From: Methanococcoides orientis
GTDB lineage: Archaea > Halobacteriota > Methanosarcinia > Methanosarcinales > Methanosarcinaceae
Length of the DNA stretch: 64,000 nucleotides
NCBI RefSeq assembly: GCF_021184045.1
Contig: NZ_CP073710.1
Span: 806,001 to 870,000, forward strand
Direction of reading: 5' to 3'
Under the pieces are notes generated by a model. The model saw only the letters and a list, made by a program, of their open reading frames with translations. It did not search any database and was not told the DNA's origin. The stretch's first letter is position 1; every line of letters begins with the position of its first letter. Below are positions 5,553 to 26,034 of this stretch, one piece after another. Position numbers and translations under genes: made by a program.

Positions 5553-5609
5553 GCAAAAGATAGAAAGGGACGAAGTGAGAATTGTCACCATAACCAACCG
5601 GATACTAGG

Positions 5610-5798
5610 GAAGAAATAGTCAAAGAAAGGGACTTCTGGTTCGCATGGTATGCATTCCATCCCGAAACCGAGCTGTATCTCCCTGAAGGAGTGGTTCTTG
5701 AGCCTCCGGTGGATGAGCAGGATAGCCCCTTAAGCCCGGCAATTGCACTTCTTTGCGTAGCTATAGCTTTTGCTATTCTAAGAAAGAAGACAAAATAA
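5610..5798 (+). pseudogene. Remnant of a DUF3179-family protein (C-terminal end only)
   Basis: About 60 codons ending in TAA at 5796-5798 encode KERDFWFAWYAFHPETELY, followed by an acidic Pro-rich spacer, a hydrophobic segment (SPAIALLCVAIAFAIL) and a basic tail RKKTK. The FWFAWxAFxPxTxxY block is the characteristic last motif of DUF3179 proteins, and the tail looks like a C-terminal membrane or surface anchor. Everything upstream of that block is missing: the frame runs straight back into the stop codon of the DUF255 gene with no start codon. This is best read as the end of a deleted gene. Whether the fragment is transcribed cannot be judged. Confidence 0.6.
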
Positions 5799-5853
5799 GA
5801 GAACTGAAGAATTAAGCCATAAAAAGAAAGGAGGTCGTGTACAGTTTCGATGA

Positions 5854-6327: not shown

Positions 6328-6436
6328 GGTTTGCCTCCAGCAATTGTTTTTTGTTTCAAGGTCGATTCAAACAAGAAAAGAAAAAAGTGTAAGTAATTAA
6401 GTAAATTAGTTAAAGAAAATAAGAGTTACTACCAAC

Positions 6437-6454
6437 GTTCGTGTATATACGAAC
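6437..6454. promoter_or_regulatory. Inverted repeat in the divergent promoter region of the Hsp20-like and DUF2115 genes
   Basis: GTTCGT, then GTATAT, then ACGAAC: perfect 6-base arms around a 6-base centre. It lies about 110 bases upstream of each start and 7 bases from a TATA-like TTATATAAAT near 6460. Position between divergent genes suggests an operator. The regulator is unknown. Confidence 0.4.
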
Positions 6455-6568
6455 TGGCGTTATATAAATGTTTCTGTCAGGTTAAAAGTGACATTAAATG
6501 AAGTTAATAAAATATGACATTACGAATTCTTACAAATTTTTAAATGAAAGAAGGACACAATATCTCTT

Positions 6569-7090
6569 ATGAACACTGCAGATCTTCTTAGCTCGCTTCA
6601 AAAATCTGCACGAAGCGTTCCTATATCCGATATTATGAAAGCAAGGGCCTTCATGGTCAGATCAGCTTCCAGCTTGCCTAAAAAGTACAGGGAAGCATAT
6701 TCAACTGAGCTTTTCAACTATCTATATACAATCTTCACAGAGATCAGTAATTCAAAACAACCTGAAATGAATGAGACCATTGATGCAGAAGAGTATGATG
6801 ATCTTATGAAAAGGCTCGAACAAATGGGTATTTCAGAAGATAAGAATCAGAAGTATTTCAATCAATTAGTGAATCTTACAGCACCCTATCTTGTATTCAT
6901 TGTCAAAAAACCGATCCATCCAATAGGGATGGTCTTTCCGGGAGGAGATCAGGTCCTGGAAAAGGATGGAATATACTATTGCCCTGTGAAAGACAAGCAG
7001 AATAATGTGGAGTGTGCTCTCTGTAAATTCTGTATTTGCAGGGATGCAGAAGAACTGATAAAAGGAGATAAGTGGAAAATGGAGGTTTAA
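6569..7090 (+). CDS. DUF2115 (UPF0305) methanogen-specific protein
   Basis: 173 residues. An all-helical N-terminal part with the conserved RSASSLPKKYREAY and LYTIF stretches is followed by PIHPIGMVFPGG and a Cys-rich C-terminus (CPVKDKQNNVECALCKFCICRD). This arrangement is typical of DUF2115, a family largely restricted to methanogens. The clustered cysteines could bind zinc or an iron-sulfur cluster, which is inference. The biological role is unknown. The gene is monocistronic by appearance: the next gene lies on the other strand, convergent and only 8 bases away. Confidence 0.85.
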   Translation: MNTADLLSSLQKSARSVPISDIMKARAFMVRSASSLPKKYREAYSTELFNYLYTIFTEISNSKQPEMNETIDAEEYDDLMKRLEQMGISEDKNQKYFNQLVNLTAPYLVFIVKKPIHPIGMVFPGGDQVLEKDGIYYCPVKDKQNNVECALCKFCICRDAEELIKGDKWKMEV

Positions 7091-7098
7091 GATGAAGC

Positions 7099-7278
7099 TT
7101 AGATGTTAGCTCCATCCAAAACACGCTTGAAAAATGCAGTAGACATACCATCTTCATCTACTTGACCAACAAACTTGACTAATTCCCAGCCATCAAGACC
7201 CATCTGATTAAGATCTTCTTTTGTCTTACCAACTTCACCCATTCGAACGGACTTAATATCATATTCCCAACATGCCAT
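7099..7278 (-). CDS. DUF4177-like small protein
   Basis: A 59-residue protein, complete from ATG at 7276-7278 to TAA at 7099-7101. It has the hallmark of DUF4177 proteins: an N-terminal strand WEYDIKSV, then LNQMGLDGWELVKFVGQ, then a strand ending in FFKR. The Gly-Trp-Glu-Leu-Val core is diagnostic. Function is unknown; members are small alpha/beta proteins of about 55-70 residues. A promoter-like AT-rich region lies upstream, and the gene converges on the DUF2115 gene. Confidence 0.75.
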   Translation of the reverse strand: MACWEYDIKSVRMGEVGKTKEDLNQMGLDGWELVKFVGQVDEDGMSTAFFKRVLDGANI

Positions 7279-7528
7279 GACTACACCTCTTTTTGAGTTT
7301 TATGTTATAATAATAAATAGCCTATTGATGGTATATAACTGTTTTTAAAAATTATATTTAACATATAGTCAACTAAAATTGATTAAAATGGTTCAATAAA
7401 AACCGAACATATCCGCAATGAACAATTTGGTAATTCAAATCATTAAATATCCATAAAAAGCAGCTTCGAATTCAATTCCTTCATGAGACATGACCCTATA
7501 AATAGTTAGAAACAGAAAATATGTATAG

Positions 7529-8779
7529 ATGGACCAGAATGGCTGTGAACCAAAAAAACCAAGGCTTTTTCCTTTACTGTTAATCAACTTTATCAATACC
7601 CTTGGCTTTGGAATAGTCATCCCATTCCTTGTTTTTCTGGTAGAGAGATTTGGTGGAAATGCCATCGTTTACGGATTCATTGGTGCCATGTATCCAGCAT
7701 TCCAGCTAATAGGAGCTCCCATACTTGGAAGATGGTCTGATATTCATGGAAGAAAGAAGATATTGTTAATATCCCAGGCAGGCACATTGTTATCCTGGAT
7801 CATATTCCTCCTTGCATTTTTCACCCCCGTAAAGAGCCTTGTGAGCGTCAATTCAGCCTTTTTTGGAGCATTTGTTATCACGATACCACTTCTGATACTT
7901 TTCATCGCCAGAAGCTTTGACGGACTTACGGGAGGGAACATAGCCGTAGCAAATGCTTACCTTGCAGACATAACTGAAGAAAAGGACCGCAATAAGAACT
8001 TTGGAAAAATGTCCATTTCTGCAAATCTCGGATTCATAATAGGACCAGCACTTGCAGGCCTGCTTAGCATAACGATCTATGGAGAACTTATTCCGGTACT
8101 TGCTGCTGCCCTCATATCCCTTGCAGGAACTATTGCAATAGTTCTGTATCTGCCTGAATCAAGGCAGTGCACCATAAGTAAAGCAAAGAAGATCAGCTTC
8201 AGGGAAGTGATCGGGCTAAAGAACATACCATATATGTTACTGCTATATTTCCTGATATTCCTCGGATTCAACATATTCTACACAGCATTCCCACTTCATG
8301 CGATCCGCACTCTTCAGTGGTCTGTTGCTGACATGGGAATCTATTTTTCAGTACTCGGCATCCTGATGATCGTAGTTCAGGGACCGATCCTCAGCATGGC
8401 GGTAAAGAGGCATTCAGATGCTTACCTTGCAATAGCAGGAAGCATCATACTTGGCACGAACTTCCTTCTGCTGGTATCCGGAAATATTGCTCTTACATAC
8501 CTTGCAGCCGCTTTCTTTGCACTTGGGAACGGACTTATGTGGCCTTCGATCCTTTCCATAATCTCAAAACTTGCAGGCAAGGAACATCAGGGTGCCGTAC
8601 AGGGTTTTGCCAGTAGCTTTTCAAGCCTTGCCAGCATTGCAGGACTGATCCTTGGAGGATTCCTCTATGAGATACTTGGAGGAGTGTCGTTCATAGTAGC
8701 AGCAGTGATAATTTACACAGTATTCCTGCTGTCTTTCAGGATGCTTTCTTTTGAAAAGGAAGTGCAGGAAGAGGTTTGA
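7529..8779 (+). CDS. Major facilitator superfamily exporter (TetA/multidrug-type)
   Basis: 416 residues with about twelve hydrophobic segments, full length for a drug:H+ antiporter. The loop between segments 2 and 3 carries the MFS motif A, GRWSDIHGRKK. The start of segment 5 has GFIIGPALAGLL, resembling antiporter motif C. The likely role is proton-driven efflux of small hydrophobic compounds from the cytoplasm. The ATG at 7529 has no ribosome-binding site but sits close behind an AT-rich promoter, so a very short or absent leader is plausible. The substrate cannot be predicted. It converges on acs, with a hairpin between them. Confidence 0.88.
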   Translation: MDQNGCEPKKPRLFPLLLINFINTLGFGIVIPFLVFLVERFGGNAIVYGFIGAMYPAFQLIGAPILGRWSDIHGRKKILLISQAGTLLSWIIFLLAFFTPVKSLVSVNSAFFGAFVITIPLLILFIARSFDGLTGGNIAVANAYLADITEEKDRNKNFGKMSISANLGFIIGPALAGLLSITIYGELIPVLAAALISLAGTIAIVLYLPESRQCTISKAKKISFREVIGLKNIPYMLLLYFLIFLGFNIFYTAFPLHAIRTLQWSVADMGIYFSVLGILMIVVQGPILSMAVKRHSDAYLAIAGSIILGTNFLLLVSGNIALTYLAAAFFALGNGLMWPSILSIISKLAGKEHQGAVQGFASSFSSLASIAGLILGGFLYEILGGVSFIVAAVIIYTVFLLSFRMLSFEKEVQEEV

Positions 8780-8882
8780 GAGAAAATAGGACATATTTCG
8801 GATAATTGCAGGATGCCAGGATCCAGAGAACGTTTAGTCTAATGCTCATGTGAAAGAAATTGGAAGGATCGCATGTTAAAAT

Positions 8883-8909
8883 GAGGTGGTGAGCGTAGCT
8901 CATCACCTC
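8883..8909. terminator. Hairpin between the convergent MFS and acs genes
   Basis: GAGGTGGTGAGC, loop GTA, GCTCATCACCTC: a 12-base stem with one G-T mismatch, 104 bases after the MFS stop and 31 bases after the acs stop. There is no U-tract, so it is a likely bidirectional structure rather than a classic terminator. Confidence 0.45.
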
Positions 8910-8939
8910 GTTCCGCGCTCCAGAAGCGATATCTGGAAC

Positions 8940-10829
8940 TCAGTCTTCCAAAGAGGATACATCCCCGGGATCCATTCCAAGCTCCTGTGCCTTAAGCAAC
9001 CTTCGCATGATCTTACCGCTGCGGGTCTTTGGCAGCGAGTCAACAATTTCGATCTCGGAAGGCATTGCAATTGGGCCCAGATTCATTCTTACATGATACA
9101 TAAGATCAAGCTTCAGTTTTTCGGAATAGTTGAAGCCCATGCGAAGTATGACGAAAGCTTTGATGGAATCACCTTTCAGAGGATCAGGTTTTCCTATTAC
9201 AGCAGCTTCAGCCACGGCCTCATGGGATACAAGCGCACTCTCGACCTCTGCACTGCCAATGTTGTGGCCAGCAACGATAAGTACATCGTCAGAACGCCCC
9301 TGTATCATGATATAGCCATCCTCATCCTTTACGGCCAAGTCACCTGCACTGTAGTAATTCTGGATCGTTGTCCAATACTGGCGATATCTTTCATCATTGC
9401 CATGAACGGTTCTCATCATGGAAGGCCAGGGTTGTTTTATCACAAGGAAACCACCTGTTCCTGCAGGTACCGGGTCACCATTCTCATCCACAACATCAGC
9501 AACCACACCTGGGACAGGCCTTCCTGTGAATCCCGGTTTCATGGGTTCTCCAACCGCTGTGGTGAGCATATGCATGCCTGTCTCGGTCTGCCACCAGGTA
9601 TCCAGAATCGGACATTTTTCCTTGCCGATAACACGATAATACCACTTGAACGCTTCGGGATTTAGAGGTTCTCCGACCGAACCCAGGATCCTCAGGGAGC
9701 TCAGGTTGTACTTCCCGGGCCATTCTTCCCCTAGTCTCATGAACATGCGTATCGCTGTTGGTGCCGTATAAAAGACACTCACATCGAACTCCTCAATTAT
9801 GTTCCACCATACACCTGGATCCGGATAGTCGGGTGTTGTCTCGGAAATGAGGATCGTTGCACCCATAGAAAGAGGACCATAGACAATGTAGCTGTGGCCT
9901 GTGATCCATCCGGGATCTGCAGTACACCACATGACATCATTTTCCTTCAGGTCCAGAATATTCTTTGTGGTGTAGTAGGTGCCTACCATATAGCCACCGC
10001 ATGCATGAACTATTCCCTTGGCCGGACCGGTTGTTCCACTGGTGTAGAGGATGAACAGAGGGTCCTCGGAATCCATCATCTCAGGTTCACATTCCTTTTC
10101 CACATCTTCCATGATCTCATAGAAGTCAACCTCGATCTCAGAAAAGAGTTCCATTTGGGGAGTCATTCTTCTCAGGACCACTATCTTCTCAACACATGAG
10201 GCATTGACCACAGCTTCATCCACAAGAGACTTCAGATCAATGCGCTTACCACGCCGAAGGCTTGCATCTGCAGTAATGACGATCTTTGCCTGTGCATCCT
10301 TTATCCTGGAATGTAATGCTTTGGCACCGAAGCCTCCGAAAACGACACTGTGGACCGCACCGATACGTGCACATGCAAGCATGGCCACGATCTGCTCAGG
10401 AACCTGTGGCATATATATGCACACTTTATCCCCTTTCTCAACACCGAGGGATTTGAGACCATTGGAAAATCTCATGACATCACGGTAAAGCTGACGATAT
10501 GTGATAACCTGCTCTTCTCCACCATCGCCTATCCAGATCATTGCGACCTTGTTCCTTTTCCCATTGAATACATGGCGTTCAAGGCAATTGGAGGTTATGT
10601 TCATCCTGGCATTGGTAAACCATTTTGCATAAGGATGGTCCCATTCCAAAACCTTGTCCCACTTTTCGAACCATTCAAGTTCCTCTGCTACACTTTCCCA
10701 GTGTTTTTCAGGATCCTTGAGAGATTCACTATAGATCTTTTCATAATCCTGCATCCAGGAATTTTCCTTTACCGATGGATCAGGATAGTAACATTTACTG
10801 TCAAGCTTAATATCTAAATTTTCAGACAT
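8940..10829 (-). CDS. acs: Acetyl-coenzyme A synthetase, AMP-forming
   Basis: 629 residues, close to the usual 630-650. It catalyses acetate + ATP + CoA to acetyl-CoA + AMP + PPi in the cytoplasm. Visible motifs: the P-loop YTSGTTGPAKG; DTWWQTETG, whose Trp limits the pocket to short acyl groups; YSAGDLAVKDEDGY; GRSDDVLIVAGHNIGSAEVE; and PKTRSGKIMRR with the catalytic, acetylation-prone Lys606. ATG is at 10829. Relatives in Methanosarcinaceae assimilate or scavenge acetate; propionate is a possible alternative substrate. The gene stands alone, with a 450-base upstream region that includes a strong hairpin at 11013-11040. Confidence 0.93.
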   Translation of the reverse strand: MSENLDIKLDSKCYYPDPSVKENSWMQDYEKIYSESLKDPEKHWESVAEELEWFEKWDKVLEWDHPYAKWFTNARMNITSNCLERHVFNGKRNKVAMIWIGDGGEEQVITYRQLYRDVMRFSNGLKSLGVEKGDKVCIYMPQVPEQIVAMLACARIGAVHSVVFGGFGAKALHSRIKDAQAKIVITADASLRRGKRIDLKSLVDEAVVNASCVEKIVVLRRMTPQMELFSEIEVDFYEIMEDVEKECEPEMMDSEDPLFILYTSGTTGPAKGIVHACGGYMVGTYYTTKNILDLKENDVMWCTADPGWITGHSYIVYGPLSMGATILISETTPDYPDPGVWWNIIEEFDVSVFYTAPTAIRMFMRLGEEWPGKYNLSSLRILGSVGEPLNPEAFKWYYRVIGKEKCPILDTWWQTETGMHMLTTAVGEPMKPGFTGRPVPGVVADVVDENGDPVPAGTGGFLVIKQPWPSMMRTVHGNDERYRQYWTTIQNYYSAGDLAVKDEDGYIMIQGRSDDVLIVAGHNIGSAEVESALVSHEAVAEAAVIGKPDPLKGDSIKAFVILRMGFNYSEKLKLDLMYHVRMNLGPIAMPSEIEIVDSLPKTRSGKIMRRLLKAQELGMDPGDVSSLED

Positions 10830-11012
10830 GTTTCTCTATTCCTAACTAATATTCATTACAGATTTCACATGACCTGACTTCGTTTCAGATCAAATGAACT
10901 CAGCTTTGGAACCATGCAAGAGATTCCACTAGGAGGAGAATACAGCTGCCTGCTATGGAAATCGATGGGACCAAATAAGGAAGAGATAATGAAACCACAG
11001 GTTAATAGTTCC

Positions 11013-11040
11013 CATCCATCATGAATAATGATGATGGATG
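11013..11040. promoter_or_regulatory. Perfect 10-base inverted repeat upstream of acs
   Basis: CATCCATCAT and ATGATGGATG flank an 8-base centre, about 185 bases upstream of the acs ATG, in a 454-base region (10830-11283) that holds no gene. It could be an operator or a structure in the acs leader, or a terminator for the M28 gene read from the other side, although it lies 240 bases past that stop. Confidence 0.35.
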
Positions 11041-11283
11041 TATTTATCTGTTGTGGTCTTTGGATTAGCAACCCATTGAATAAAAAAAGACATCAATGGA
11101 ACCAAAAATACAGAAATGCCATAATATAGACTCCTGTTGTTCGCAAAGAAAATGATAAAAAAAGGATGTATGACCATCAGTTATTAGAGACCACAATCTC
11201 AATGCAAGTGTACAACCTTTTGAAATAGATTAAACTAATTTTATAGACTCCTTTGAAGAATTTTGCTCTAAAAAAATCAGCAG

Positions 11284-12513
11284 TTAATCACAATTCTCTA
11301 CAATATCCTTTAATGCAGCTGCAACTTCCACAAGTTTATCGCAGTCAATAATGTCTGGTATATCTTTTTCTGTATGTGTAATTGTTTTCATCAAAAAAGG
11401 AATACACTCAGATGTTAATGCCATCGTTTCTATGCTATTTTGTGCAAATATCATATGGTCTCCGCTATACCAGGGTCCCCCCTCTGTTAGGCCCTTGTAG
11501 TTTGATAAAGTGCCACAGATATTTCGTTTTGTTTTATCTGAACACTCATAGAATGAATAAGCAGTTTTACCTTTTTTGTAACCAACATCATCTATATTGA
11601 TTGCCAGAATTATTTTATCAAACTCTTTTTGATATTTATGCAGGTAATCCATCTGCCCTGCTACACTGTAGTGATCCTCCCCATTGAAAGCCACAATTTC
11701 AATACAAATATTGCTTTGATGATCGGAAAGCATTTCAGCAAGGAGTAATAGGACCACTGTCCCTGAAGCATTATCTGATGCACCTGGTGTGCTTGCCCTT
11801 GAATCTATGTGTGCACAAATAACAATTTTCTTATCTGCGTCTGGATTTTTCCGCACAATGACATTACAGGCAGTTGAAGGGATTCTTTTGGAATTGATCC
11901 TTAACTTGAACATGCCCCCTGTTCCTTTAGCTATTTCATCACCAACATCGTCCGTGCAATATGCAGAAGGGATGTCAAAATCACCATCTTCTATAAGAGG
12001 ATAGGGATATATTGCCCCTACAAGTTCGGGTTTGATTTCTGTCGCAGTGACTATAGCTGCTGGTTCTTTTGTTTCTAAAAGAGAATATATTTTCTTATGA
12101 TCTTCCGGGTTATAGAACACAAAATTTTTAGGCATCAGCGGTTCATCGCATATTTTACCTTTCATCAATAGGATCTTGCCCCTACAGTTGCATTTTTCTA
12201 ATTCTTCAACGGTAGTAACCGTTTCTAATTCCGCTTCTACATCACACCCAAGAGAAAAAGGGCTTGGATATATCTCAAACGATCTGTCAATAGCTCTAAG
12301 GGAAGATTCCCCGCTCTCAAAATCCATGCAACTAAAGGACTCGCTTTCAACTGCATATCCATAAGGGCTGACAATCCTCGCAAAAAAGTCTGTTGCTTCA
12401 CGATTGCCTGCCGAACCAGTGCTTCTGGTAGGCTTTACATCACATAAAGCATTCAAATAGACCTTTGCTTTTTCTGAATATTCTTCATTCTCAGTTCTTA
12501 TATTAAATTTCAT
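11284..12513 (-). CDS. M28-family zinc aminopeptidase
   Basis: 409 residues, cytoplasmic (no signal peptide). All five expected metal ligands of the M28 co-catalytic zinc site can be placed: His235 (AHIDSR), Asp247 (GASDNASG), Glu279 with its preceding catalytic-base region (FNGEDH), Asp308 (NIDDVG) and His380 (ITHTEKD). An apical or PA-like insertion region lies around residues 90-215. The enzyme probably removes N-terminal residues from peptides. The ATG start at 12513 is followed directly by coding sequence with no alternative. The gene is separate from its neighbours and faces away from the GyrI-like gene. Confidence 0.88.
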   Translation of the reverse strand: MKFNIRTENEEYSEKAKVYLNALCDVKPTRSTGSAGNREATDFFARIVSPYGYAVESESFSCMDFESGESSLRAIDRSFEIYPSPFSLGCDVEAELETVTTVEELEKCNCRGKILLMKGKICDEPLMPKNFVFYNPEDHKKIYSLLETKEPAAIVTATEIKPELVGAIYPYPLIEDGDFDIPSAYCTDDVGDEIAKGTGGMFKLRINSKRIPSTACNVIVRKNPDADKKIVICAHIDSRASTPGASDNASGTVVLLLLAEMLSDHQSNICIEIVAFNGEDHYSVAGQMDYLHKYQKEFDKIILAINIDDVGYKKGKTAYSFYECSDKTKRNICGTLSNYKGLTEGGPWYSGDHMIFAQNSIETMALTSECIPFLMKTITHTEKDIPDIIDCDKLVEVAAALKDIVENCD

Positions 12514-12855
12514 ATTAATTTCTCCAAGAATTGATCTAACCCATCTTTGCCAGTCAGAAGACAGCTCCTTATTTTAATGTGAATTAATCTGTACCCATCC
12601 ATACATAGATCTTCATCGTAAAAAATCTATTTGCTATAATCAACATTTAATAATAGTCAATCAACATTCCTAGTTGACATTTTTCCACCCCTTGAGTTTA
12701 ACTGTGCCTTTTGGAATTGAATAAATAATCAATTGCATGATGTTCCCATACAGGATTTTCTGGTAAGGAATGATTGTTACTTTCAATCAACTTACTATGA
12801 GTTTTTATAGTACTTATTACAGAAAATAATTTGAAATTAAAAGTGGGTGATAAGC
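12514..12855. other. Divergent intergenic region between the M28 peptidase and the GyrI-like gene
   Basis: 340 bases holding the two promoters. A TATA-like TTTTTATAG near 12800 serves the plus-strand gene. On the minus strand a short run (ENPVWEHHAIDYLF, about 12725-12775) looks protein-like but is soon broken by stops in every frame. I do not call a gene. Confidence 0.4.
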
Positions 12856-13344
12856 TTGGAAATTCTAAAAGAAACAGAGATAACAGAATTAGAAGAAAGA
12901 ACCGTAGCATGCGTTTCCTTTGTCGGCAACTATGTGGGTAAGGTCGAGGTCTTTGCAGAGCTGTTCGGTAAATTGGGCAACTGGGCAGGCCCGAAGCAAT
13001 TGATAGGACCGAATACTCTTTTTATGTCTGCCTATTACGATGATCCGGGTGTTACCCCTCCAGAAGAACTTAAACTGGATGCGTGCATGACCATCGACGA
13101 TGATGTTGAAGTTGAGGGTGAGATCAAGAAGCAGAAACTTCCCGGTGGAAAGTATGTAGTAATGCATGCAGAACTGAAAGGAGCAGAAGAATATGGCCCT
13201 GCATGGGAAAAGATCGTAGGGTGGCTTATGGAAAATAATCTTGAAATGGATATGTCCCGGGCAAGTTATGAGATATATTTGAATGATCCAGAGGAGCATC
13301 CGGAAAAGCATCATATTCTTGATATATGCATGCCAGTCAAGTGA
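12856..13344 (+). CDS. GyrI-like (AraC effector-binding/SOUL-fold) small-molecule-binding protein
   Basis: 162 residues forming a stand-alone GyrI-like domain, the ligand-binding module also found at the C-terminus of MerR/AraC regulators. Recognisable blocks are ERTVACVSFVGNY near the start, AYYDDP, and the C-terminal ASYEIYLNDPEEHPEKH followed by a final strand DICMPV. The start is set by the ribosome-binding site GGTGAT (12846-12851), an exact match to the 16S tail, which fits the TTG at 12856. The in-frame GTG at 12847 overlaps that site and is rejected. It may sense lipophilic cations or amphiphiles. The domain also occurs at the end of the MerR regulator at 43.6 kb. Confidence 0.82.
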   Translation: MEILKETEITELEERTVACVSFVGNYVGKVEVFAELFGKLGNWAGPKQLIGPNTLFMSAYYDDPGVTPPEELKLDACMTIDDDVEVEGEIKKQKLPGGKYVVMHAELKGAEEYGPAWEKIVGWLMENNLEMDMSRASYEIYLNDPEEHPEKHHILDICMPVK

Positions 13345-13456
13345 ATAAGAACCAGAGGGGCATTTCTGAAATGTAAATGCTTCTCTTAACAATCGTAATC
13401 TGGGATTGGAAGTATGGGATAGAAGGAGTAGTGGAAAAGTTTGAAAAATGGTAATC

Positions 13457-13478
13457 AGAAAGGTTGTTAACCCTTTCT
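13457..13478. terminator. Hairpin between the convergent GyrI-like and SDH-protease genes
   Basis: AGAAAGG and CCTTTCT form a 7-base stem that can extend through TT/AA with one bulged C, centred between the two convergent gene ends and followed by AT-rich DNA on both sides. Confidence 0.5.
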
Positions 13479-13505
13479 TAAAATCAAGTAATTCAAAAAA
13501 TCAAT

Positions 13506-14273
13506 TTACTCAATATATTCCACGCTCATCTTTGCAGACCTGAAAAACTTCATGAAATCATGGACTTCTGAAGGCAATTCAGTGCTGACCGGCAGCCCCA
13601 GTTCAATAGCCTCTTTTGCAGAGATCGGAGTGACATGTATCATCTCTCCACTTAATAGTTTTTGAGCAACGGAGTTCCTTTTTTCTTCATCTTGAATTTT
13701 GTCCTCAAGCAATTCCATGATAACATCTTTTGTAAGCTCCATTGCTTTTTTTGAGATCTCGCTCATGATGATGGTAGTGTCATCAGCATCCATTCCTTTC
13801 TTTTCGGCTGCATAGATCCATGAGGGTGCCGGGTATGTTCCACGAATGAGATCACCCACCTGTGGGTCTATTGGACCTATGACTGCATCAGGATCCATTA
13901 AAATCTCATCTGCAGCAAGGGCAATGATGGTACCCCCTGACATGCAATAGTGTGGAATCATTATCCTGACCTTTTCTTTATGATTATTAAGAGCCCGTGC
14001 GATCTGTATGCTGGCATGCATTTGACCTCCAGGTGTTTGCATGATAATATCTATGGGCCGGTCACCGGTCTCCCTGATGGCTCGAAGTACCTGTTCAGCA
14101 TCCTCAACATCTATGTATTGATAGACAGGAAAACCTAACATGGAAACTGCTTCTTTCCTGTGTATCATGGTAAGAACCTTTGTGCCCCACATGCGCTCCA
14201 TCCGTTTGATCATGGAAAGCCTTTGCATCTTAATTTTCTTGAGCTGGGACTGAGGATAGACAAAAGCGTACAA
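13506..14273 (-). CDS. SDH-family (ClpP/SppA-fold) membrane serine protease; true start probably upstream
   Basis: A serine-dehydrogenase-proteinase (PF01972-type) protein. After a basic linker come VLTMIHRKE, IDIIMQTPGG (oxyanion-hole loop, about residues 75-83), PHYCMSGG with the nucleophile Ser112, and DPDAVIGPIDPQVG. These belong to the ClpP/crotonase-fold protease found in many archaea. The first ATG/GTG/TTG codon in frame is TTG at 14273, but this starts inside a hydrophobic helix that continues upstream in the same frame (EILIILFLIFFLYAFVYP). Relatives carry this N-terminal membrane anchor. A purine-rich AAGGGGG at 14344-14350 precedes ATC/ATT/CTG codons near 14334-14342, so an unusual start there is likely. 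Confidence 0.82.
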   Translation of the reverse strand: MYAFVYPQSQLKKIKMQRLSMIKRMERMWGTKVLTMIHRKEAVSMLGFPVYQYIDVEDAEQVLRAIRETGDRPIDIIMQTPGGQMHASIQIARALNNHKEKVRIMIPHYCMSGGTIIALAADEILMDPDAVIGPIDPQVGDLIRGTYPAPSWIYAAEKKGMDADDTTIIMSEISKKAMELTKDVIMELLEDKIQDEEKRNSVAQKLLSGEMIHVTPISAKEAIELGLPVSTELPSEVHDFMKFFRSAKMSVEYIE

Positions 14274-14385
14274 GAAGAAGATCAGAAATAAGATTATCAG
14301 AATTTCTGTGACGGTGATTTCGGAAATCGAGACCAGAATGATACCCCCTTGATCAGAAATAATATTTACTATATTACTTTTTAGT

Positions 14386-15003
14386 TACATAACCCATATA
14401 ACCTTACTTTTCTAATCTTTTTCTACATCAATGAGATTGTCAAATTAGAAGCTAAAGTAAAAGAGTTGGGTTCAGTCCATGCATATATGGATACTGATTC
14501 CATCTTTGTTCCTCCTGAGCAAGCCCAGGAGATTGTTGATCTTACTGTAATGAACCTGATCGAGAAGGGAGTTGTAGATAACAAGGACTTTGTGAGGACT
14601 GAGAGTTTTTCATTAAGGCTTAGACCTACTGGAGCAAGGAAGGTTACTGAAGAGTTCAATTCAGTAATGAACCACAAGACAAGGTCGAATACAGGAAAAA
14701 GAACAGTTCTTGGGATCTGTCCTGTTGTTGAAGGCAAGGGAGTTAAGCCATCAGCTTGTTGGAAAGAGGAAAACGATTGAGTTTAGCAGACCTGTTTATG
14801 TAGCTCAAAGAGATGATTCTGATCTGCTGAGGAAGAGGATCATTGACATGCCTTACACCGAATGGAAGGAGATGGGATTCTCTAAGGGTACATTGCTTTA
14901 CATGAAGCAGAATGCCAAGAGTGATAAGCCGTTTACTCTCAATGCTCATGTAAGGACAAGATTAGAGATGGGGATGCATCTTAAAAAGAGCATGATGGCT
15001 TAA
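14386..15003 (+). pseudogene. Collapsed PolB-Cas1 remnant (casposon-like)
   Basis: Two overlapping frames. The first (open 14386-14780) reads HAYMDTDSIFVPPEQAQEI, the YxDTDS catalytic C-motif of a family B DNA polymerase. It passes without a break into VDLTVMNLIEKGVVDNKDF, which resembles the C-terminal helical domain of Cas1. A +1 shift near 14710-14770 then continues with KARELSHQLVGKRKTI (the Cas1 end motif) and an appended helix-turn-helix-like tail (IIDMPYTEWKEMGFSKGTL) ending at TAA 15001-15003. PolB next to a Cas1 with an extra C-terminal DNA-binding domain is the gene pair of casposons. Here most of PolB and the first half of Cas1 are gone. The assignment rests on motif recognition, not a database match. 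Confidence 0.55.
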
Positions 15004-15110
15004 GCTATGATTAAATATAATGTTGCCTTTGATTCAGAACGATTTAGCAAAAAAATCAAAGAAGGGTTAGATTACCCTTCAGAATTCTCAATAAGCATAA
15101 TGATGGTCTC

Positions 15111-16139
15111 TGCGTCTTTGATCAGCTCTTCAGCGACCTTGACAACGGCATTTCCAACCTCAAATTGGTGCGGGAGCAACTCAAGATATACCATCAGGCA
15201 GTCTTGAAGAAGGCCTTTGAGGGAGAGCTTACGAGGGAATGGAGGGAACAGCAGACTAATCTTCCGGATGCGGAGGATTTGCTAGAGCAGATTCGGGTGG
15301 AACGGGAAGAGAGTTACAAGAAGAAGCTTGAGGAATGGAAAAGAGCTGTTAAAGAGTGGGAGGATGCAGGGAAAGAAGGAAAGAAACCCAGTCGACCCAA
15401 GAAACCCAAAGAAACAAAACCACTCACTATCAATGAGCTTTCCAAATTACAAATTACCCCCCAAGAGTGGAAATGGACGAAAATTGGAAATTTAACACTT
15501 GGGGTAGAATATGGAACATCTGCAAAATCACAAAAATCAGGAGATGTTCCGGTATTACGAATGGGAAATATTCAAAATGGGAAATTTGATTGGGGAGATT
15601 TGGTTTTTACAAGCGACAAGGCAGAAATTGAAAAATATTTACTAAAAAAAGATGATGTTCTTTTCAACCGCACAAATAGCCCCGAATTAGTTGGTAAAAC
15701 TGCCATTTACAAAAGTGAAAGACCTTCTGTTTTTGCAGGCTATTTGATAAGGATAAATCAACTTCAAAAATATATAGTTGCAGATTTTCTAAACTATTTT
15801 CTGAACTCCCACACTGCAAAAATGCATGGAAATTCAGTAAAAACAGATGGTGTAAACCAATCAAACATAAATGGAGAAAAACTTAGCAATTATCCATTCC
15901 CACTCTGTTCCTTCCTCGAACAACAAGCCATCGTAACCGAAATCGAAACACGCCTTTCGGTTTGTGATAAAGTCGAACAGGACATCGAAGAAAACCTTGA
16001 AAGGGCCGAAGCATTGCGACAGAGCATCTTGAAAAAAGCGTTTGAAGGAAAGCTACTCAATGAACGGGAGCTGGAAGAGGCACGAAACGCTCCAGATTGG
16101 GAACCTGCCGAAGTTTTGTTGGAACAAATTAAGACCTAA
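15111..16139 (+). pseudogene. hsdS: Type I restriction-modification specificity subunit HsdS, 5'-truncated
   Basis: About 342 codons covering the second half of an HsdS. It has the central conserved helix (LFSDLDNGISNLK ... LKIYHQAVLKKAFEGEL), a second target-recognition domain (about 15450-15900: WKWTKIGNLTLG ... DVPVLRMGNIQNG), and the C-terminal conserved helix (LEQQAIVTEIETRLSVCD ... LRQSILKKAFEGKLL). The two conserved helices repeat each other, as in intact HsdS. The first recognition domain is absent: homology stops abruptly near 15111 with no start codon, beside the PolB-Cas1 remnant. A TTG at 15165 could start a half-length protein. No hsdM or hsdR is present. Half-HsdS proteins can dimerise, so activity is not excluded. 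Confidence 0.75.
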
Positions 16140-16160: not shown

Positions 16161-16784
16161 TCATGCCTTATTGACCCTTTCGACCCGGTCCTGTTCCTCC
16201 CATTTATCCCTGTACTTGTACAATGTACTTGCAGGAACGTTCATCACCCTCGAGATTTCGGACCATGTCAGACCCTTATCCCTGTACTTCATGACCTCTT
16301 TTTTGTTCGGCTCTTTGGTGGGTCTCCCCCATGTTTTCTTTTCCCTCCGGTGGCGCTCTATGCCAACCTTTATCCGTTCCCTCATGATCCTCTTCTCATT
16401 TTCTGCAACCCATCCAAAGATAGATATTAACAGCTTCCTGTAATGAGGGTCACCAGATGTGGACCATGCCTCACTGGGGCTCAAGGAGACCACCCTGACG
16501 CCTTTATCTTCAAATTCCATAAGATTAAGGGTGTCGATAAAAGTCCTCCCAAGCCGCGAGATTTCGAACAGATAGATCGTCTTCACTTCATGAGACTCGA
16601 TATATTTCAGGAGCTTTTTGAACCCGGGTCGCTCTGGAGCCGGAACACTCCCACTGATGCCCTCGTCAAAGAATATCTGCTCCGGAGGAATGCCCTTGTT
16701 CTTGAGCTGGACTATTTGGGTATCGATGTTCTGATCTTTCGTACTTGTCCTTGCATATCCAACTGAATTTTCAGAAGATTCCAT
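16161..16784 (-). CDS. Serine recombinase (resolvase/invertase family)
   Basis: 207 residues. The N-terminal catalytic domain has the active Ser14 in YARTSTKDQN, plus FDEGISGS and IYLFEISRLGRTFIDTL, which contributes catalytic arginines. It is followed by the E-helix region ENEKRIMRERIKVGIERHR. The C-terminus is a Hin/resolvase-type helix-turn-helix (LTWSEISRVMNVPASTLYKYRDKW) after a WGRPTK hinge. Such enzymes cut and exchange DNA at short inverted or direct sites. The gene is intact with an ATG start, and converges on the truncated hsdS 21 bases away. It may have caused the rearrangements seen here or be the integrase of a small element. Confidence 0.9.
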   Translation of the reverse strand: MESSENSVGYARTSTKDQNIDTQIVQLKNKGIPPEQIFFDEGISGSVPAPERPGFKKLLKYIESHEVKTIYLFEISRLGRTFIDTLNLMEFEDKGVRVVSLSPSEAWSTSGDPHYRKLLISIFGWVAENEKRIMRERIKVGIERHRREKKTWGRPTKEPNKKEVMKYRDKGLTWSEISRVMNVPASTLYKYRDKWEEQDRVERVNKA

Positions 16785-16899
16785 TAAACATATTTTGTGT
16801 TACAGATCTTTTATAAAGTTGTTCTCATTGTTTTATGGAACCAAATAGACATGTATTGTGGGATCTAATTCAAAAAAAAAGAAATATGCGAGGATGGCC

Positions 16900-17142
16900 T
16901 TATGGTTTATAAGAACCACGTTTATAGGTGATGCTTTTGATTTTATCAATAGGTATAAACTCAGATTCATCGGAATCTTCTACAATAATACCATTATATA
17001 AGAATACGATTTTATCTAATTCATCAAACAAGTCTTCTTGGCAACCATCGTTATCTTCTTCGAGAAATTTTTCTCTATATTCAATCGATACATTTGATAT
17101 CGGTCCAATTTCATATGTTATAGTATAACCTCCTACTTCCAA
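16900..17142 (-). CDS. Small acidic hypothetical protein
   Basis: About 80 codons with a composition typical of a soluble acidic protein: FLEEDNDGCQEDLFDELDKI in the middle and a final strand IDKIKSITYKRGSYKP. I do not recognise a family. The only standard start codon is TTG at 17142. However, a strong ribosome-binding sequence GGAGGT lies just inside it at 17127-17132, which suggests the true start may be a few codons later at a non-standard codon such as ATA. The next gene upstream is divergent. It belongs to the accessory island. Confidence 0.45.
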   Translation of the reverse strand: MEVGGYTITYEIGPISNVSIEYREKFLEEDNDGCQEDLFDELDKIVFLYNGIIVEDSDESEFIPIDKIKSITYKRGSYKP

Positions 17143-17408
17143 TAAAATGTGATATTACTTATACATATTCATATTAAGTATTATCACTTACCTTAATGGG
17201 TATCATTGTGCACTTCATTTTAACCCCCTCCATTCTCCTATTGCAACCATATGTTCTGAGGCTTCCGAGAATCATCCAGATTAAGCTTTTTTGGGTGGAG
17301 TTATGTCATCGCATGGAATGGACTAAAAACGCTTAAAACTGCTTGTTATAAGAGTAAAAAATAATTTACCCTTAAACATTTAAATATTATTTTTGCATTG
17401 AATAAACA

Positions 17409-18134
17409 ATGAAGTGGCAAAAAATTTCAGAGGAAGATGTTGCTGATAAATTATACGATTTTATAAAAGAATACTTTGACGACTTTGGCCATAAAATTGG
17501 AACCAATTGGTGGTTTACACCTTCATGGTCACCCTTTGTAGAAGCTTGTTTTTTGATATGGGGTGAGAAATTAAACTATAAAGTAGGGGCTTCTTATACT
17601 CAGGATAATGTTCCTATATTTTTAAGAGAAATTGGAGTCATTTCAGATATAGATAAATTTCAAAAACCTATTGACAGAGGCTTCGATTTGTCTTGGCATA
17701 CTGAAAATTACGACTTCATATTGGGGCTAGAGCATGAAGAAACAATAAAAGGTAATTTTGGAAACACGGTCGAAAATCACCTCCAGAACATATATGATGA
17801 AATCGAAAAATTACGATCGTATTAGGGAAAATTCAAAATTATCGTCACAAGACCTCGCCTGCGAAAAATCAATGGAATAAAAGATAATTACCCTGATGTA
17901 ATAACGCATTATAGGGATAAATTGTCAGAGAGACTTTTAGAAATCACTCCTCATGATGATGAAAAATGGATAATAATCTTAATTGCTCCTGAGAAAAATT
18001 TAGGAACAAAACAAAGGACTACAAAAATATTGTTTTATTCATATATGTGGGAAACTGATCAACTATCACAAATAACTGAAAAAAGTTTCGAAGTATTCGT
18101 GGATGATGATTTTATGGTAAAAAGAAAAAAATAA
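17409..18134 (+). CDS. Hypothetical protein with one internal in-frame TAG (candidate pyrrolysine or read-through codon)
   Basis: From ATG at 17409 a single frame runs 241 sense/TAG codons to TAA at 18132-18134, broken only by TAG at 17823-17825 after codon 138. The part before is a soluble protein with aromatic clusters (GTNWWFTPSWSPFVEACF). The part after, 102 codons, remains open in AT-rich DNA and has regular beta-type hydrophobic patterning (KWIIILIAPEK, TKILFYSYMWE), so it looks coding rather than accidental. In a pyrrolysine-decoding methanogen the TAG may be translated. Otherwise it truncates the protein to 138 residues and a TTG at 17922 would have to start a 70-residue second product. 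I recognise no family. The neighbour is an HNH nuclease on the other strand. Confidence 0.6.
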
Positions 18135-18192
18135 GGTTGCTATTAGCCAACTTCCAACATACTAAATTTGGATAAAAGATATTTACAATTTA

Positions 18193-19266
18193 TTAATAAT
18201 GACCCAATATTTCTTCCCAAGATACACCTATCAAACATTCCAGGAGATCATCTTTCCTTTTGTCATATAGTACCTTTAAGCTATCTTTTTTTTCATCAAT
18301 TGTCGCATGATGTAATCGCCTATGGCAGTTCGGACAAAGAGACACAATGTTACTCGGCACATCTAAACTCCAATTGAATTCCCCTTGTTTCCCCATAGGG
18401 ATTAAGTGATGAGCTTCTACAAAATTTTCATCCGTTTTGGAGGAAGTAAATGTTTTATGTCCGATATCGATTTCACAAAGGTAGTTCGAATTTTCCAAAC
18501 TCTCTTTCGCAACTTTGGGGTCTCTGGTCCACACTTCCTTTCCATGACTTGTAGTTGATTTCGGCTTTTTTTGTGGCCTTTTTGGAGTACTCGAAGCTTT
18601 TGCATAAATCACTTCACTTTGATATTCTTCATCTTCAATATCGTCGATATCAGTTGTCAATATTCTGTCCGCAAACCTTTCAAAACTCCCAACTCGCCCC
18701 GTTAACTCGCGATAGATGCCGACTAATTTTATGAGATCACTTGTCAATTGCTTGTCATTCGGCAAATCATCTTTTGAATAAAATTTGCCACAAATATGGC
18801 CCAGTTGATATCCTACGGCAAGATTCTTTTTACTTTTTAAATCAATCTTTTCGAGTGGAAAATCCATTGATGATGGATTTAATAGTTTTCTAAATTCATT
18901 TGCAACTGTTACAATGTTTTCCCGCCCTTCTTTGATTCCATATTCCTCTTTGTAATAAGTCCAACCCTGGTTAAGTGATAAATAAAAACCGGACATATCA
19001 GCCCTAAAGAGATATACAATGTAGTAGCCTTCACTTGCACCCGTAGTGATTTTTTTATCAAATATCGCAACCCAAGGAATTTCAGCCCAATTTTTTCTCC
19101 TTCCGGGAGAGCCCTCAATTTTATAGTACGATGTATCAATAAGTGTTGTTTTTTCAATAGATGCTTTTGGAATATGCCTTACATAATGTGCAAAATCACT
19201 GCCAGGAAGTGGTTTCGTTTTTTCAACTAAATAATTATCCATTATTTTTAGAAAAGACTCTTGCAT
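18193..19266 (-). CDS. MrcB_N (DUF3578)-HNH endonuclease, type IV-like restriction protein
   Basis: 357 residues. Residues 1 to about 170 resemble the DUF3578/MrcB N-terminal domain (YYKIEGSPGRRKNWAEIPWVAIFD, then GFYLSLNQGW), which reads modified cytosine in McrBC-like systems. A linker is followed by a C-terminal HNH nuclease: EAHHLIPMG, then NIVSLCPNCHRRLHH, with His-His, Asn and His ligands in order. The fusion suggests modification-dependent DNA cleavage, a defence role. The start at ATG 19266 is preceded by AGGTGA at optimal spacing; a TTG at 19287 lies upstream of that site and is rejected. It sits alone among island genes. Confidence 0.82.
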   Translation of the reverse strand: MQESFLKIMDNYLVEKTKPLPGSDFAHYVRHIPKASIEKTTLIDTSYYKIEGSPGRRKNWAEIPWVAIFDKKITTGASEGYYIVYLFRADMSGFYLSLNQGWTYYKEEYGIKEGRENIVTVANEFRKLLNPSSMDFPLEKIDLKSKKNLAVGYQLGHICGKFYSKDDLPNDKQLTSDLIKLVGIYRELTGRVGSFERFADRILTTDIDDIEDEEYQSEVIYAKASSTPKRPQKKPKSTTSHGKEVWTRDPKVAKESLENSNYLCEIDIGHKTFTSSKTDENFVEAHHLIPMGKQGEFNWSLDVPSNIVSLCPNCHRRLHHATIDEKKDSLKVLYDKRKDDLLECLIGVSWEEILGHY

Positions 19267-19379
19267 AAATTTCACCTGATTGAACAATATGATAAAATAT
19301 ATTAAATAATTATTGATAATTTTAGAACAGTTTTTTACATAAGAATGTTTTGTTTTAACCGTTCATCGTTTCCGAAAAA

Positions 19380-19607
19380 TCACTTGGGAGGGGGAATAAT
19401 CCTCACCTCTTTCTCCGACTTTTCCGGTATATACTTGGAGTCCAAAATCTTCTTCTCCGAGACCACCTTGGAGACCACGTATAGGCCGTCTCTACGCCTC
19501 AAGAGGAAGAACCCACACTCTTCTATCTCCTTAGCTGTTAACCTCCTTATGAGCCTTTTCTGGACCATTTCGGAGGCAGTTCTGTCGTCATATATGATAA
19601 TCTTTTC
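19380..19607 (-). pseudogene. Truncated copy of the 3' end of the winged-helix gene at 22.5 kb
   Basis: About 75 codons matching the C-terminus of the protein encoded at 22543-23622, residue for residue at most positions: IYDDRTASEM, IEECGF, DGLYVVSKVV, EKKILD, and KEVRIIPPPK before TGA. The DNA similarity also runs a few bases past both stops. The match ends abruptly at about 19607, with no start codon or promoter. Together with the full-length gene it brackets the NHL-repeat gene in direct orientation. Confidence 0.75.
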
Positions 19608-19710
19608 ATTTTATTACAAAGGAAAATGCTTCACGGAACGTTAAAGAAAAATACTGAAAACCACCAAAAAAAGAATTGTGGAGAAAATTGTATTCCCCAC
19701 ACTTAAACAA

Positions 19711-22197
19711 TCACTTTGTTTTGTGGATCTTGATTGAACCTCCACCAATTTCTGTTGTTGGATCTTCATCCTCATCTTCACCCGGCATGTTGTCATAGAC
19801 CACAACATCGTTGTTGTCTTTGTCCCATATCTTTATCCTGAACATGTCAACGTCGGTGCTTGGTGTGAGTTCTGCGTCGATGGCGGTAAGCATGAATCCG
19901 TAGTTACCTTCACCATTGATGGTTCCAGTTCCCTTGTACATTGCTTTGTGTTTGCTGACTACAAGCCAATCATAACTGTCTGAGTGGAAGTTGAGATCAC
20001 CTGCACGGAACTGGAATTCAGTATTACCAACAGGATAATCTTTATTTTTCACGTACTTTGAAACAAAGCCAAAGTTTGCTTTTCCTTCAAGGGTTGGCTC
20101 CGCCAGATATGCTCCCGACTCAGACCAAATCCATCCACCACCGGTTACAAATCCGCCATCTGGGTCGTACACCACTACGTACTGATACAGTTCTGTATCG
20201 AACCCACCGTCATCATCTGTAATCGTGAGATTGACTGTGTACACTCCAGCTGTTGTGTAGGTATGATTATCTATTACAGGACTAGTGGTAGGAAGAGGAC
20301 CTGTTATTATTCCATCACCCCAGTCTATTGTGTACGATGCTTCAGGTTCAAATACTTGAATTCGATGGTTAAAAGTGTCTGCAACATAAACATTTCCGGA
20401 AGAATTCACAGCAATACCAAATGGATCATCAAATTGACCATCACCGCTTCCTTCAGATCCCCATTTTGTCAGGAAAGTTCCAGAGGAATCAAATTTTTGG
20501 ATTCGATGATTCCAAACGTCTACAACAAAAACATTTCCTGAGGAATCCACGGCAACAGTAAATGGATAATAAAATTGACCATCACCGGCTCCATGCGATC
20601 CCCATTTCATCAAGAAAGTACCTGAGGAATCAAATTTTTGGATTCTATCATTCCAAACGTCTCCAACATAAACATTACCGGAAGAATCCACAGCAATACC
20701 GTGTGGATATCCGAATTGTCCATCACCTGAGCCAGGAGTACCCCATTTCATTAAGAAATTACCAGATGAGTCGAATTTTTGGATTCGATGGTTCCAACCA
20801 TCTCCAACATAAACATTGCCTGAAGAATCTACATCAATTCCAAGCGGATCATCAAACTGTCCATCACTAGTTCCTTCAGACCCCCATTTCATCAAGAAAT
20901 TACCAGAAGAATCGAATTTTTGAATTCGATCGTTAAACTTGTCTGTAACGTAAACATTACCGGAAGAATCCACAGCAATATCCGTTGGATAATCGAATTG
21001 CCCATCACCAATTCCAAGAGATCCCCATTTTGTCAGGAAAGTACCAGATGAGTCGAATTTTTGGATTCGATGGTTTTGATTGTCTGCAACATAAACATTC
21101 CCCGAAGAGTCTACGGCAACCCCAACTGGATGATTAAATTGCCCATCACCAATTCCATACGATCCAAATTTATCGACAAAAACATAATTTTCTGTATCAT
21201 GAGAACCAGGATAAGTGAATGTGGCAAATAAATCGACTTCACTACCAACTTCAATTGGTTCAGTGGGTTGCACGGTTAGGGATGTTATTTTTGGAATGTC
21301 AAGTTCAAATACTTGAACCCGATAGTTGTAGGTGTCCATAACATAAACATATCCGGTAGCATTTATGGCAACATCTAGTGGATAATTGAATTGTCCATCA
21401 TCTGAGCCAGGAGTACCCCATTTTGTCAAGAGATTGCCCGAAGAATCATATTTTTGAATCCGATAATTCCAACCGTCAGTAACATAAACATTGTCGCAAG
21501 CATCTATGCCAACACCATATGCGCCACTTGATCCCCATTTTGTCAAGAAATTACCAGAGGAATCAAATTTTTGAATTCGAACGTTCTGAGAGTCTACAAC
21601 ATAAACATTGTCGGAAGAATCCACGGCAACATCTGTTGGATAATTGAATTGATCATCACCAGTTCCAAGAGATCCCCATTTCATCAAGAAATTGCCAGAA
21701 GAGTCGAATTTTTGAATTCGATGATTTTCAGCGTCTGTAATATAAACATTCCCGGAAGAATCAATGGCAACTCCATATGGATATCTGAATTGTCCATCAC
21801 CAGTTCCAGAAGATCCCCATTTCATCAAGAAATTGCCAGAAGAGTCGAATTTTTGAATTCGATGGTTAAAAAGGTCTGAAACATAAACATTGTCGGAAGA
21901 ATCCACAGCAACACGGAGTGGTTGATTAAATTGTCCATCACCGGTTCCAGAAGATCCCCATTTCATCAAAAAATTTCCAGATGAGTCGAATTTTTGGATT
22001 CGATGGTTAAAAGTGTCTGCAACATAAACATTCCCGGAAGAATCTATGGCAACACTCGATGAATACGCGAATTGTCCGTCACCAGATCCTTGTGATCCAA
22101 ATTTGTCAACAAAAACATAATCTGCCGATGCAGTTCCAATGGTAATTAATACCAAAGCTATTCCAAAACAAATCAGTATACTTTGTTTAATTCTCAT
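19711..22197 (-). CDS. Secreted double NHL-repeat beta-propeller protein with a split PKD domain
   Basis: 828 residues, exported (signal peptide MRIKQSILICFGIALVLITIG). It contains two six-bladed NHL propellers built from 40-47-residue repeats of the form VAVDSSGNVYVAD-x-NHRIQKFDSSGNF-x-KWGS-GDGQF. Between them is the first half of a PKD domain (PTEPIEVGSEVDLFATFTYP). After the second propeller the PKD resumes (SYTIDWGDG, then HTYTTAGVYTVNLTITDDDGG). A C-terminal beta-rich domain of about 140 residues follows. The protein probably acts at the cell surface in adhesion or matrix formation. ATG 22197 is chosen because GGTGGTGG lies just upstream; the earlier TTG is rejected. Blade 5 of propeller 1 is shortened. 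Very similar repeats make the locus prone to recombination. Confidence 0.88.
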   Translation of the reverse strand: MRIKQSILICFGIALVLITIGTASADYVFVDKFGSQGSGDGQFAYSSSVAIDSSGNVYVADTFNHRIQKFDSSGNFLMKWGSSGTGDGQFNQPLRVAVDSSDNVYVSDLFNHRIQKFDSSGNFLMKWGSSGTGDGQFRYPYGVAIDSSGNVYITDAENHRIQKFDSSGNFLMKWGSLGTGDDQFNYPTDVAVDSSDNVYVVDSQNVRIQKFDSSGNFLTKWGSSGAYGVGIDACDNVYVTDGWNYRIQKYDSSGNLLTKWGTPGSDDGQFNYPLDVAINATGYVYVMDTYNYRVQVFELDIPKITSLTVQPTEPIEVGSEVDLFATFTYPGSHDTENYVFVDKFGSYGIGDGQFNHPVGVAVDSSGNVYVADNQNHRIQKFDSSGTFLTKWGSLGIGDGQFDYPTDIAVDSSGNVYVTDKFNDRIQKFDSSGNFLMKWGSEGTSDGQFDDPLGIDVDSSGNVYVGDGWNHRIQKFDSSGNFLMKWGTPGSGDGQFGYPHGIAVDSSGNVYVGDVWNDRIQKFDSSGTFLMKWGSHGAGDGQFYYPFTVAVDSSGNVFVVDVWNHRIQKFDSSGTFLTKWGSEGSGDGQFDDPFGIAVNSSGNVYVADTFNHRIQVFEPEASYTIDWGDGIITGPLPTTSPVIDNHTYTTAGVYTVNLTITDDDGGFDTELYQYVVVYDPDGGFVTGGGWIWSESGAYLAEPTLEGKANFGFVSKYVKNKDYPVGNTEFQFRAGDLNFHSDSYDWLVVSKHKAMYKGTGTINGEGNYGFMLTAIDAELTPSTDVDMFRIKIWDKDNNDVVVYDNMPGEDEDEDPTTEIGGGSIKIHKTK

Positions 22198-22542
22198 TAT
22201 TTCCACCACCAAATAATATCTCTTTAAAAATTAATGATAGCCTTATAATTTTCATCTGAAAATTGACTTATCACTAATATTTCCCCAAATTATACTTGGG
22301 TGAAATAATTATTTAAGCCACTCGGTCTATTTTTTTGTGATGTGTATATACAGAAGGATACATCCATTTTGAAGGCTCATTTCTAAAAAAATAGTGTTTT
22401 TCCTCATCCAAAGCAACATTATAGTTCTGCTCTTCAAACATTATCAGTCACTTTTATCCTGTGATCTCTCCAAATACCCAGCTACATTAATAACTCCGTG
22501 TAGATTTTTGTGGAAGAAATCGAAATCTCATGATCGGTGAAA
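22198..22542. other. Intergenic region upstream of the NHL protein gene
   Basis: About 345 bases with no reading frame of note. On the minus strand AT-rich stretches near 22300-22345 could contain the promoter of the NHL gene. Nothing else is visible. Confidence 0.4.
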
Positions 22543-23622: not shown

Positions 23623-23675
23623 TTGCTTCACCAATACTTTGAGGTTGTTTGATGCTGATTTTTTGTTGGGAGGAT

Positions 23676-25696: not shown

Positions 25697-25711
25697 AGAA
25701 TAACCTCATGC

Positions 25712-25966: not shown

Positions 25967-26034
25967 ATTATAGCCTCATTATTATAAATTTTCAATTAAT
26001 TGTATTTGTTCTAATTTTGCAGTTAGGCGTCTGG

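Follow-up and report, generated by a model that had tools for sequence, protein, structure and literature searches.

Casposons are jumping genes that are kin to the ancestor of CRISPR spacer capture. In the Methanosarcinaceae, the family-2 casposons MetBur-C1 to MetBur-C3 and MetMaz-C1 have been described (PMC4046053, PMC10359463), and the helix-turn-helix (HTH) domain of the casposase is essential for integration (PMC6977970). The window analysed here is a stretch of 64,000 nucleotides (positions 806001-870000) of a Methanococcoides orientis chromosome that is assembled as a single contig of 2,494,162 bp. Pieces of two genes of this casposon family were found fused in it, about 93 bp of polB followed on the same strand by about 460 bp from the 3' end of cas1, with the features listed below.

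14447..14540 (+): PolB fragment, residues 565-595, with polymerase motif C HAYMDTDSIFVPPEQAQEIVD (tblastn)
14532..14541 (+): fusion junction with microhomology, ATT exact and ATT.TTGAT 8/9 (PolB and Cas1 parents compared)
14532..14711 (+): casposase residues ~252-314, sharing the frame of the PolB piece (tblastn, 6OPM)
14671..15003 (+): casposase C-terminus in the +1 frame with the HTH tail, through the stop codon (tblastn, 6OPM, tail profile)

Identity of the fused pieces

The polymerase C-motif recognised in the preliminary description was found to belong to a family-2 casposon polymerase, as the 31 residues encoded at 14448-14540 (+) are 93.5% identical to PolB of the MetBur-C1 type (tblastn, E 1.4e-12), where the reference is the polymerase of the intact casposon in the related genome of M. 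burtonii. The DNA of this fragment is 82-91% identical to other polB copies. PolB has shrunk here to motif C plus a few residues on either side, so the casposon-type polymerase is represented by this short piece only. The reading that the motif runs in frame into a Cas1-like C-terminal domain and then, by a +1 shift, into ARELSHQLVGK and an HTH tail also held. The first frame (14532-14711) corresponds to casposase residues 252-314 with E 8e-23 and the second (14671-14967) to residues 295-395 with E 1.2e-42 (tblastn), and the C-terminus in the second frame also matches a tail profile of the genus (E 5.5e-31). The top solved structure for both frames is 6OPM, the Methanosarcina mazei casposase, with E 1.7e-14 and 9.4e-27 respectively. 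The Cas1 piece contains indels and shows 80-84% DNA identity to other cas1 copies.

Profile searches had been proposed as a check on these family assignments. The first Cas1 frame scored 21.5 bits (E 1.5e-4) against Pfam Cas_Cas1, slightly below the cut-off of 22.3 bits, and this score is marginal because the piece is short. On the 31-residue PolB piece neither Pfam (PF00136) nor NCBIfam called a polymerase, whereas the parent polymerase of that piece matches PF00136 at 8.9e-7. Judged from sequence comparison, the PolB and Cas1 match scores exclude chance. Both halves are casposon genes and the Cas1 half has at its C-terminus the additional HTH by which family-2 casposases are defined, in agreement with the casposon signature originally noted, and the stretch is thus a casposon-derived relic in the sense of decayed casposon-gene sequence. 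The casposon DNA begins at about 14447 rather than at 14386 as first drawn, the earlier bases being a flank common to the sister species.

Loss of coding capacity and of element ends

The Cas1 piece starts at IVDL (residue 252), downstream of the parent motifs EGGVAW (162), HEMN (232) and QEPF (246), which presumably carry the catalytic Glu-His-Glu residues of Cas1. The N-terminal catalytic half is therefore absent, and the Cas1 homologue with its C-terminal HTH extension is present as a frameshifted C-terminal fragment. Since the frame changes inside the Cas1 part (14671-14711), no single open reading frame spans PolB and Cas1 and a functional fusion protein with both domains is not encoded. 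A genome-wide search with a terminal inverted repeat (TIR) pattern, which found other elements and gave 0 hits in the reversed control, detected no TIR tip GGGGATATA/GGGATATATA in the window, and with no TIR-bounded ends there is no target site duplication (TSD, ~14 bp) at the piece either. The TIRs and target duplications whose search had been suggested do occur at intact casposons elsewhere in this genome, though none flank the window piece. No tRNA gene was found within the window, and tblastn with all five core proteins (Cas1, PolB, HNH and two HTH proteins) returned only the polB and cas1 pieces there.

With the catalytic half of Cas1 and most of PolB gone, the frame broken and TIR and TSD lacking, the stretch is unable to act as a casposase. 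These losses indicate a dead, non-coding relic of family-2 casposons that has no working casposase or polymerase product. Taken alone, the window piece is ordinary pseudogene debris.

The junction and the sister locus

At the join, the window was compared with PolB and Cas1 parents of about ten loci. The polB copies read GAGAT(T/C)AT(A/T)(G/A)A(T/C)TAT and the cas1 copies TT(T/C)(A/G)TTGT(T/G/A)GATCT, where the window has GAGATTGTTGATCTT. The crossover lies within ATT, which is exact over 3 bp, and the enclosing 9-bp ATT.TTGAT has one mismatch between the closest parents. The suggestion that the peptide EIVD occurs in both parents was close, although PolB has EIID and Cas1 has FIVD.

In every intact relative examined that carries both genes, polB and cas1 were observed to be divergent (casposons A and B of this genome, the three of M. 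burtonii, two of the Methanococcoides MAG G008 and single ones in G006 and G010), while the two pieces in the window are co-directional, so that gene order and orientation do not fit a single collapsed casposon. The closest sister genome, the draft G006, has a contig (C13) that is collinear with window positions 4633-14533 at about 95% identity and that contains the same polB piece with the same left boundary and the same flank (L064:~9947). There polB extends to KPEKE and is followed in frame by an N-terminal Cas1 piece EYVFSPKRMDIDSIVVYG, giving the junction KPEKE|EYVFSPKRMD, after which come a DJ-1-like gene and then a cas1 tail. This DJ-1 gene and cas1 tail correspond to positions 1416513-1417549 of the present genome (97% identical), on the other strand and 0.6 Mb distant. 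The right flank of the window fusion (16163-26969) matches a separate G006 contig, C9. Shared gene order therefore stops at the fusion, and the Cas1 half in the window is not the ortholog of the Cas1 half in G006.

Neighbourhood of the fusion

Further casposon traces and associated genes were located on both sides of the fusion.

8803..8869 (+): another, shorter cas1-tail relic, with an MFS gene on one side and an acetyl-CoA synthetase-like gene on the other (nhmmer)
13398..13440 (+): final ~25-30 bp of a cas1 tail, bordering the SDH-protease gene unit (side-by-side sequences, weak alone)
15057..15078 (no strand): terminator-like inverted repeat GAAGGGTTAGATTACCCTTC, 3' of the cas1 tail (read from sequence)
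15060..15131 (-): final ~22 codons of an antisense gene that ends ...IENSEG-stop (M. vulcani comparison)
15085..16139 (+): 5'-truncated hsdS, type I restriction specificity subunit (PF01420, 1.8e-11)

The relic at 8803..8869 is common to the sister species and was detected with E 1.5e-4 (the best of five shuffles reached 0.7), or E 1.4e-3 genome-wide. The trace at 13398..13440 is continuous with a longer cas1 tail in M. vulcani L098, and the GyrI-like, SDH-protease, MFS and acetyl-CoA synthetase-like units of the window meet at such tail traces. A comparable inverted repeat follows the cas1 tails of M. vulcani, where full genes with the IENSEG ending come after the cas1 tails in L113 and L097. 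In the intact casposon A, cas1 is followed by hsdM, hsdS, a SIR2-like gene and hsdR, all inside the TIRs, and because of this order of cas1 and then hsd cargo, the window hsdS is plausibly former casposon cargo.

A serine recombinase gene (window 16161-16784, -) adjoins the relic, and a truncated relative of it (L066:1256-1642) adjoins MetBur-C1.

Cas1 and polB tails across Methanococcoides

A sequence profile built on the final 120 bp of cas1 detected 20 tail copies in this genome, two in intact casposases and 18 as relics, nearly all of which are intergenic. All 11 Methanococcoides genomes surveyed with it have between 12 and 44 copies each; most genera outside Methanococcoides have none, and one other genus has 19. 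In a second survey, a query running from polB to cas1 mapped 123 remnants in six genomes. Remnants of cas1 were centred in the last quarter of the gene in 61 of 84 cases (p 8e-20) and those of polB fell in the 3' quarter in 30 of 37 (p 1e-12); as some remnants may share descent, these p values somewhat overstate the evidence. Only 2 of the 123 belong to genes between polB and cas1. Intact elements vary more in the 3' quarters of both genes, and the 3' bias is therefore not explained by detection. Closely spaced polB and cas1 remnants are co-directional in 12 of 18 pairs, the window pair included. We found no description of this pattern (12-44 tails per genome, biased to the 3' end and placed between accessory genes) in the literature searched.

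Two explanations for the tails were rejected. The full polB-to-cas1 query excluded an artefact of querying with the window piece, and the idea that the tails are element ends carrying a TIR failed because intact elements have 1-8.5 kb between cas1 and the TIR. Only one tail was seen to reach the element end, at L115:1364 in M. vulcani, where a cas1-tail relic (L115:1280-1456) leads into the TIR tip TATATATCCC and on through a duplication-like stretch to a tRNA-Leu 3' end.

In an island of the present genome (L021:4500-8503, G000:C1:1416501-1420503), pieces of cas1 and polB alternate with ordinary genes (DJ-1-like, oxidoreductase-like, acetyltransferase and flavodoxin), and everything lies on the same strand. 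The island differs from G006 (L064) by an extra 2-kb segment between two CCTTGAAGCT copies, without a TIR.

The tails may reflect cargo retention, in which mobility genes would be deleted from within while the cargo is kept and the gene end touching the cargo would be lost last. As a working idea, the 3' ends of cas1 and polB would be the last to go because they face the cargo at both ends of the element. We favour cargo retention, as the simpler account, over exchange at the tails, although taken alone it leaves the direct orientation of neighbouring tails unexplained.

Origin of the fusion

The sister has the same PolB piece joined to another Cas1 piece whose partner lies 0.6 Mb away in this genome, which points to a composite. 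The window fusion lies at a synteny break and is probably a composite relic of two or more casposon copies, not one collapsed casposon. The preliminary description had taken it for a single element collapsed by one deletion through microhomology. Short microhomology is indeed present at the join, but with polB and cas1 divergent in all intact relatives, a single deletion cannot bring both onto one strand. Collapse in place, through an internal inversion and a deletion or through one deletion in a co-directional element, is accordingly unlikely in our estimate. Both genes do come from the same element family, an inversion within one casposon followed by a deletion would also leave co-directional pieces, and another remnant of this genome (1580607-1581144) is a simple internal deletion, although its orientation is the standard divergent one; against this, no co-directional casposon occurs among the intact elements, the sister ortholog has a different Cas1 junction with its downstream partner elsewhere here, and neither TIR nor TSD is found at the piece. 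An assembly artefact that fused two casposon copies hardly deserves credence. Repeats are common sites of assembly failure and M. vulcani contigs break near this gene, but the left half and its boundary recur in the independent genome G006 and the present genome is one contig. The 97-aa HTH open reading frame at 14710-15003 might instead encode a domesticated small DNA-binding protein, as the frame spans the HTH tail and this domain is needed by the casposase for integration; the indels within the Cas1 domain, the lack of an intact ortholog at the sister locus and the varied points at which other tails are cut make this very improbable, if slightly less so than a faulty assembly.

A further possibility, somewhat better placed than collapse in place and still doubtful, is that the cas1 and polB tails are recombination handles, so that units of a gene and its tail move by homologous recombination between directly repeated tails, with the window piece as one boundary. 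Most tails that lie close together are direct repeats (14 of 17 within 3 kb, p 0.013, and 24 of 32 within 5 kb, p 0.007), and single genes are enclosed by tails (an acetyltransferase gene in L089 and one for a GyrI-like protein in L118). In the window, a tail trace marks the meeting point of the SDH-protease and GyrI-like units, whereas in M. vulcani each has its own tail beside it, and the window piece stands at a synteny break. The orientation bias is modest, however, and comes from a partial list of tails, the tails are about 80% identical and hence now poor substrates for homologous recombination, and a matched pair of empty and filled sites was not found. The general form of this proposal, that 3' relics of cas1 (and polB) form a scattered set of direct repeats on both sides of single accessory genes, which are exchanged at these points, is equally tentative. 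Exchange at tails is compatible with a composite relic and does not exclude it. If it were true, a dead transposon family would be a joint for genome reshuffling and the window fusion a joint at a synteny break; and relics that marked cargo or points of exchange would map what casposons delivered to their hosts.

For the composite relic that we prefer, casposon debris with a sense-strand polB piece would already have adjoined the SDH-protease gene in the common ancestor of the two species. Illegitimate recombination at ATT.TTGAT may then, in the present lineage, have joined the debris to a 5'-truncated cas1 tail, which together with its hsdS cargo would have come from another casposon copy during a chromosomal rearrangement. 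The piece would then survive among many intergenic 3'-end relics of cas1 and polB, which may act only passively, as short repeats open to recombination. The polarity could also be the opposite, with the G006 arrangement as the derived state, as the locus was compared without an outgroup, and G006 being a draft, C13 and C9 could be closer together than they appear.

Intact casposons and CRISPR-Cas cargo

Inverted repeats of the GGGATATA type and duplications of ~12-14 bp at tRNA 3' ends characterise the intact copies in this genome. These copies and a related element are listed below.

1397735-1414614 (G000:C1, L020): casposon A, TIR GGGGATATA... and tRNA 3'-end duplication
G000:C1:965493-985324 (L019:10493-20000, L026:1-10324): casposon B', 19.8 kb, bounded by TIR and TSD
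G010:C1:1905367-1941969 (L132, L093, L133): related element from a different species, with a 14-bp duplication CGCATTTTAAGAAT

As cargo, casposon A has a complete type I restriction system together with the SIR2-like gene, and its 12-bp duplication is followed by the left end of another casposon. Casposon B' has a 14-bp duplication AAAAGAAAAGTGCG, inverted repeats of 189 bp that are 88% identical and a tRNA-Leu 3' end at its right. It encloses the casposase, polB and an entire CRISPR-Cas locus of type I-B with cas3, cas5, cas7, a gene in the cas8 position for which no family match was found, cas6, an array, cas2, cas1 (TIGR03641, 484 bits) and cas4, and a second, decayed array lies beside the left TIR. 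Identity of the CRISPR leader with the TIR was considered and set aside, as the 189 bp in common are simply the inverted repeat, and the decayed array on the left is the only one adjoining it. The cas2 gene of B' (L026:~8130-8450, -) has an in-frame TAG. Amber codons can be read as pyrrolysine in the Methanosarcinaceae and have reportedly been seen in MetBur-C3, so neither the cas2 TAG nor those ambers need be inactivating. The G010 casposon has the same kind of casposase with a different CRISPR effector set and arrays, and a CRISPR cas1 was not found inside it. CRISPR-like repeats in L164 were rejected as coding repeats of a beta-helix protein. CRISPR-Cas loci enclosed by casposon inverted repeats bear on the link between casposons and CRISPR adaptation; a 2019 review describes the known casposons as lacking Cas2 (PMC6452270), and no paper on a casposon with a CRISPR-Cas locus was found in the literature searched.

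In M. burtonii (G005, which we take to be strain DSM 6242), MetBur-C1 to MetBur-C3 (L066:1957-10391; L067:1462-11583 and neighbours) have GGGGATATAGG-type inverted repeats and 13-14-bp duplications, and MetBur-C1 is inverted relative to the other two. These TIRs and target duplications are new here, none of the TIRs having been found in the 2014 study (PMC4046053).

Comparison with known casposons

The window relic shares with the family-2 casposons of the Methanosarcinaceae the polB and cas1 genes, the C-terminal HTH and the host family. It differs from them in being made of fragments of two of the five core genes, without TIR, TSD or catalytic residues, and in having polB and cas1 on one strand where the casposons have them divergent. 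The C-terminal part of Cas1 and the HTH align with the M. mazei casposase (PDB 6OPM; PMC6977970) over the full fragment, but the fragment is frameshifted and lacks the N-terminal domain with the catalytic residues. The nearest parallel in decay is the remnant casposon of Methanolobus psychrophilus R15 (PMC4046053), which is likewise decayed casposon DNA without recognisable TIRs. That genome has one adjacent remnant (PMC4046053), whereas Methanococcoides has dozens of dispersed 3'-end relics per genome, throughout the genus.
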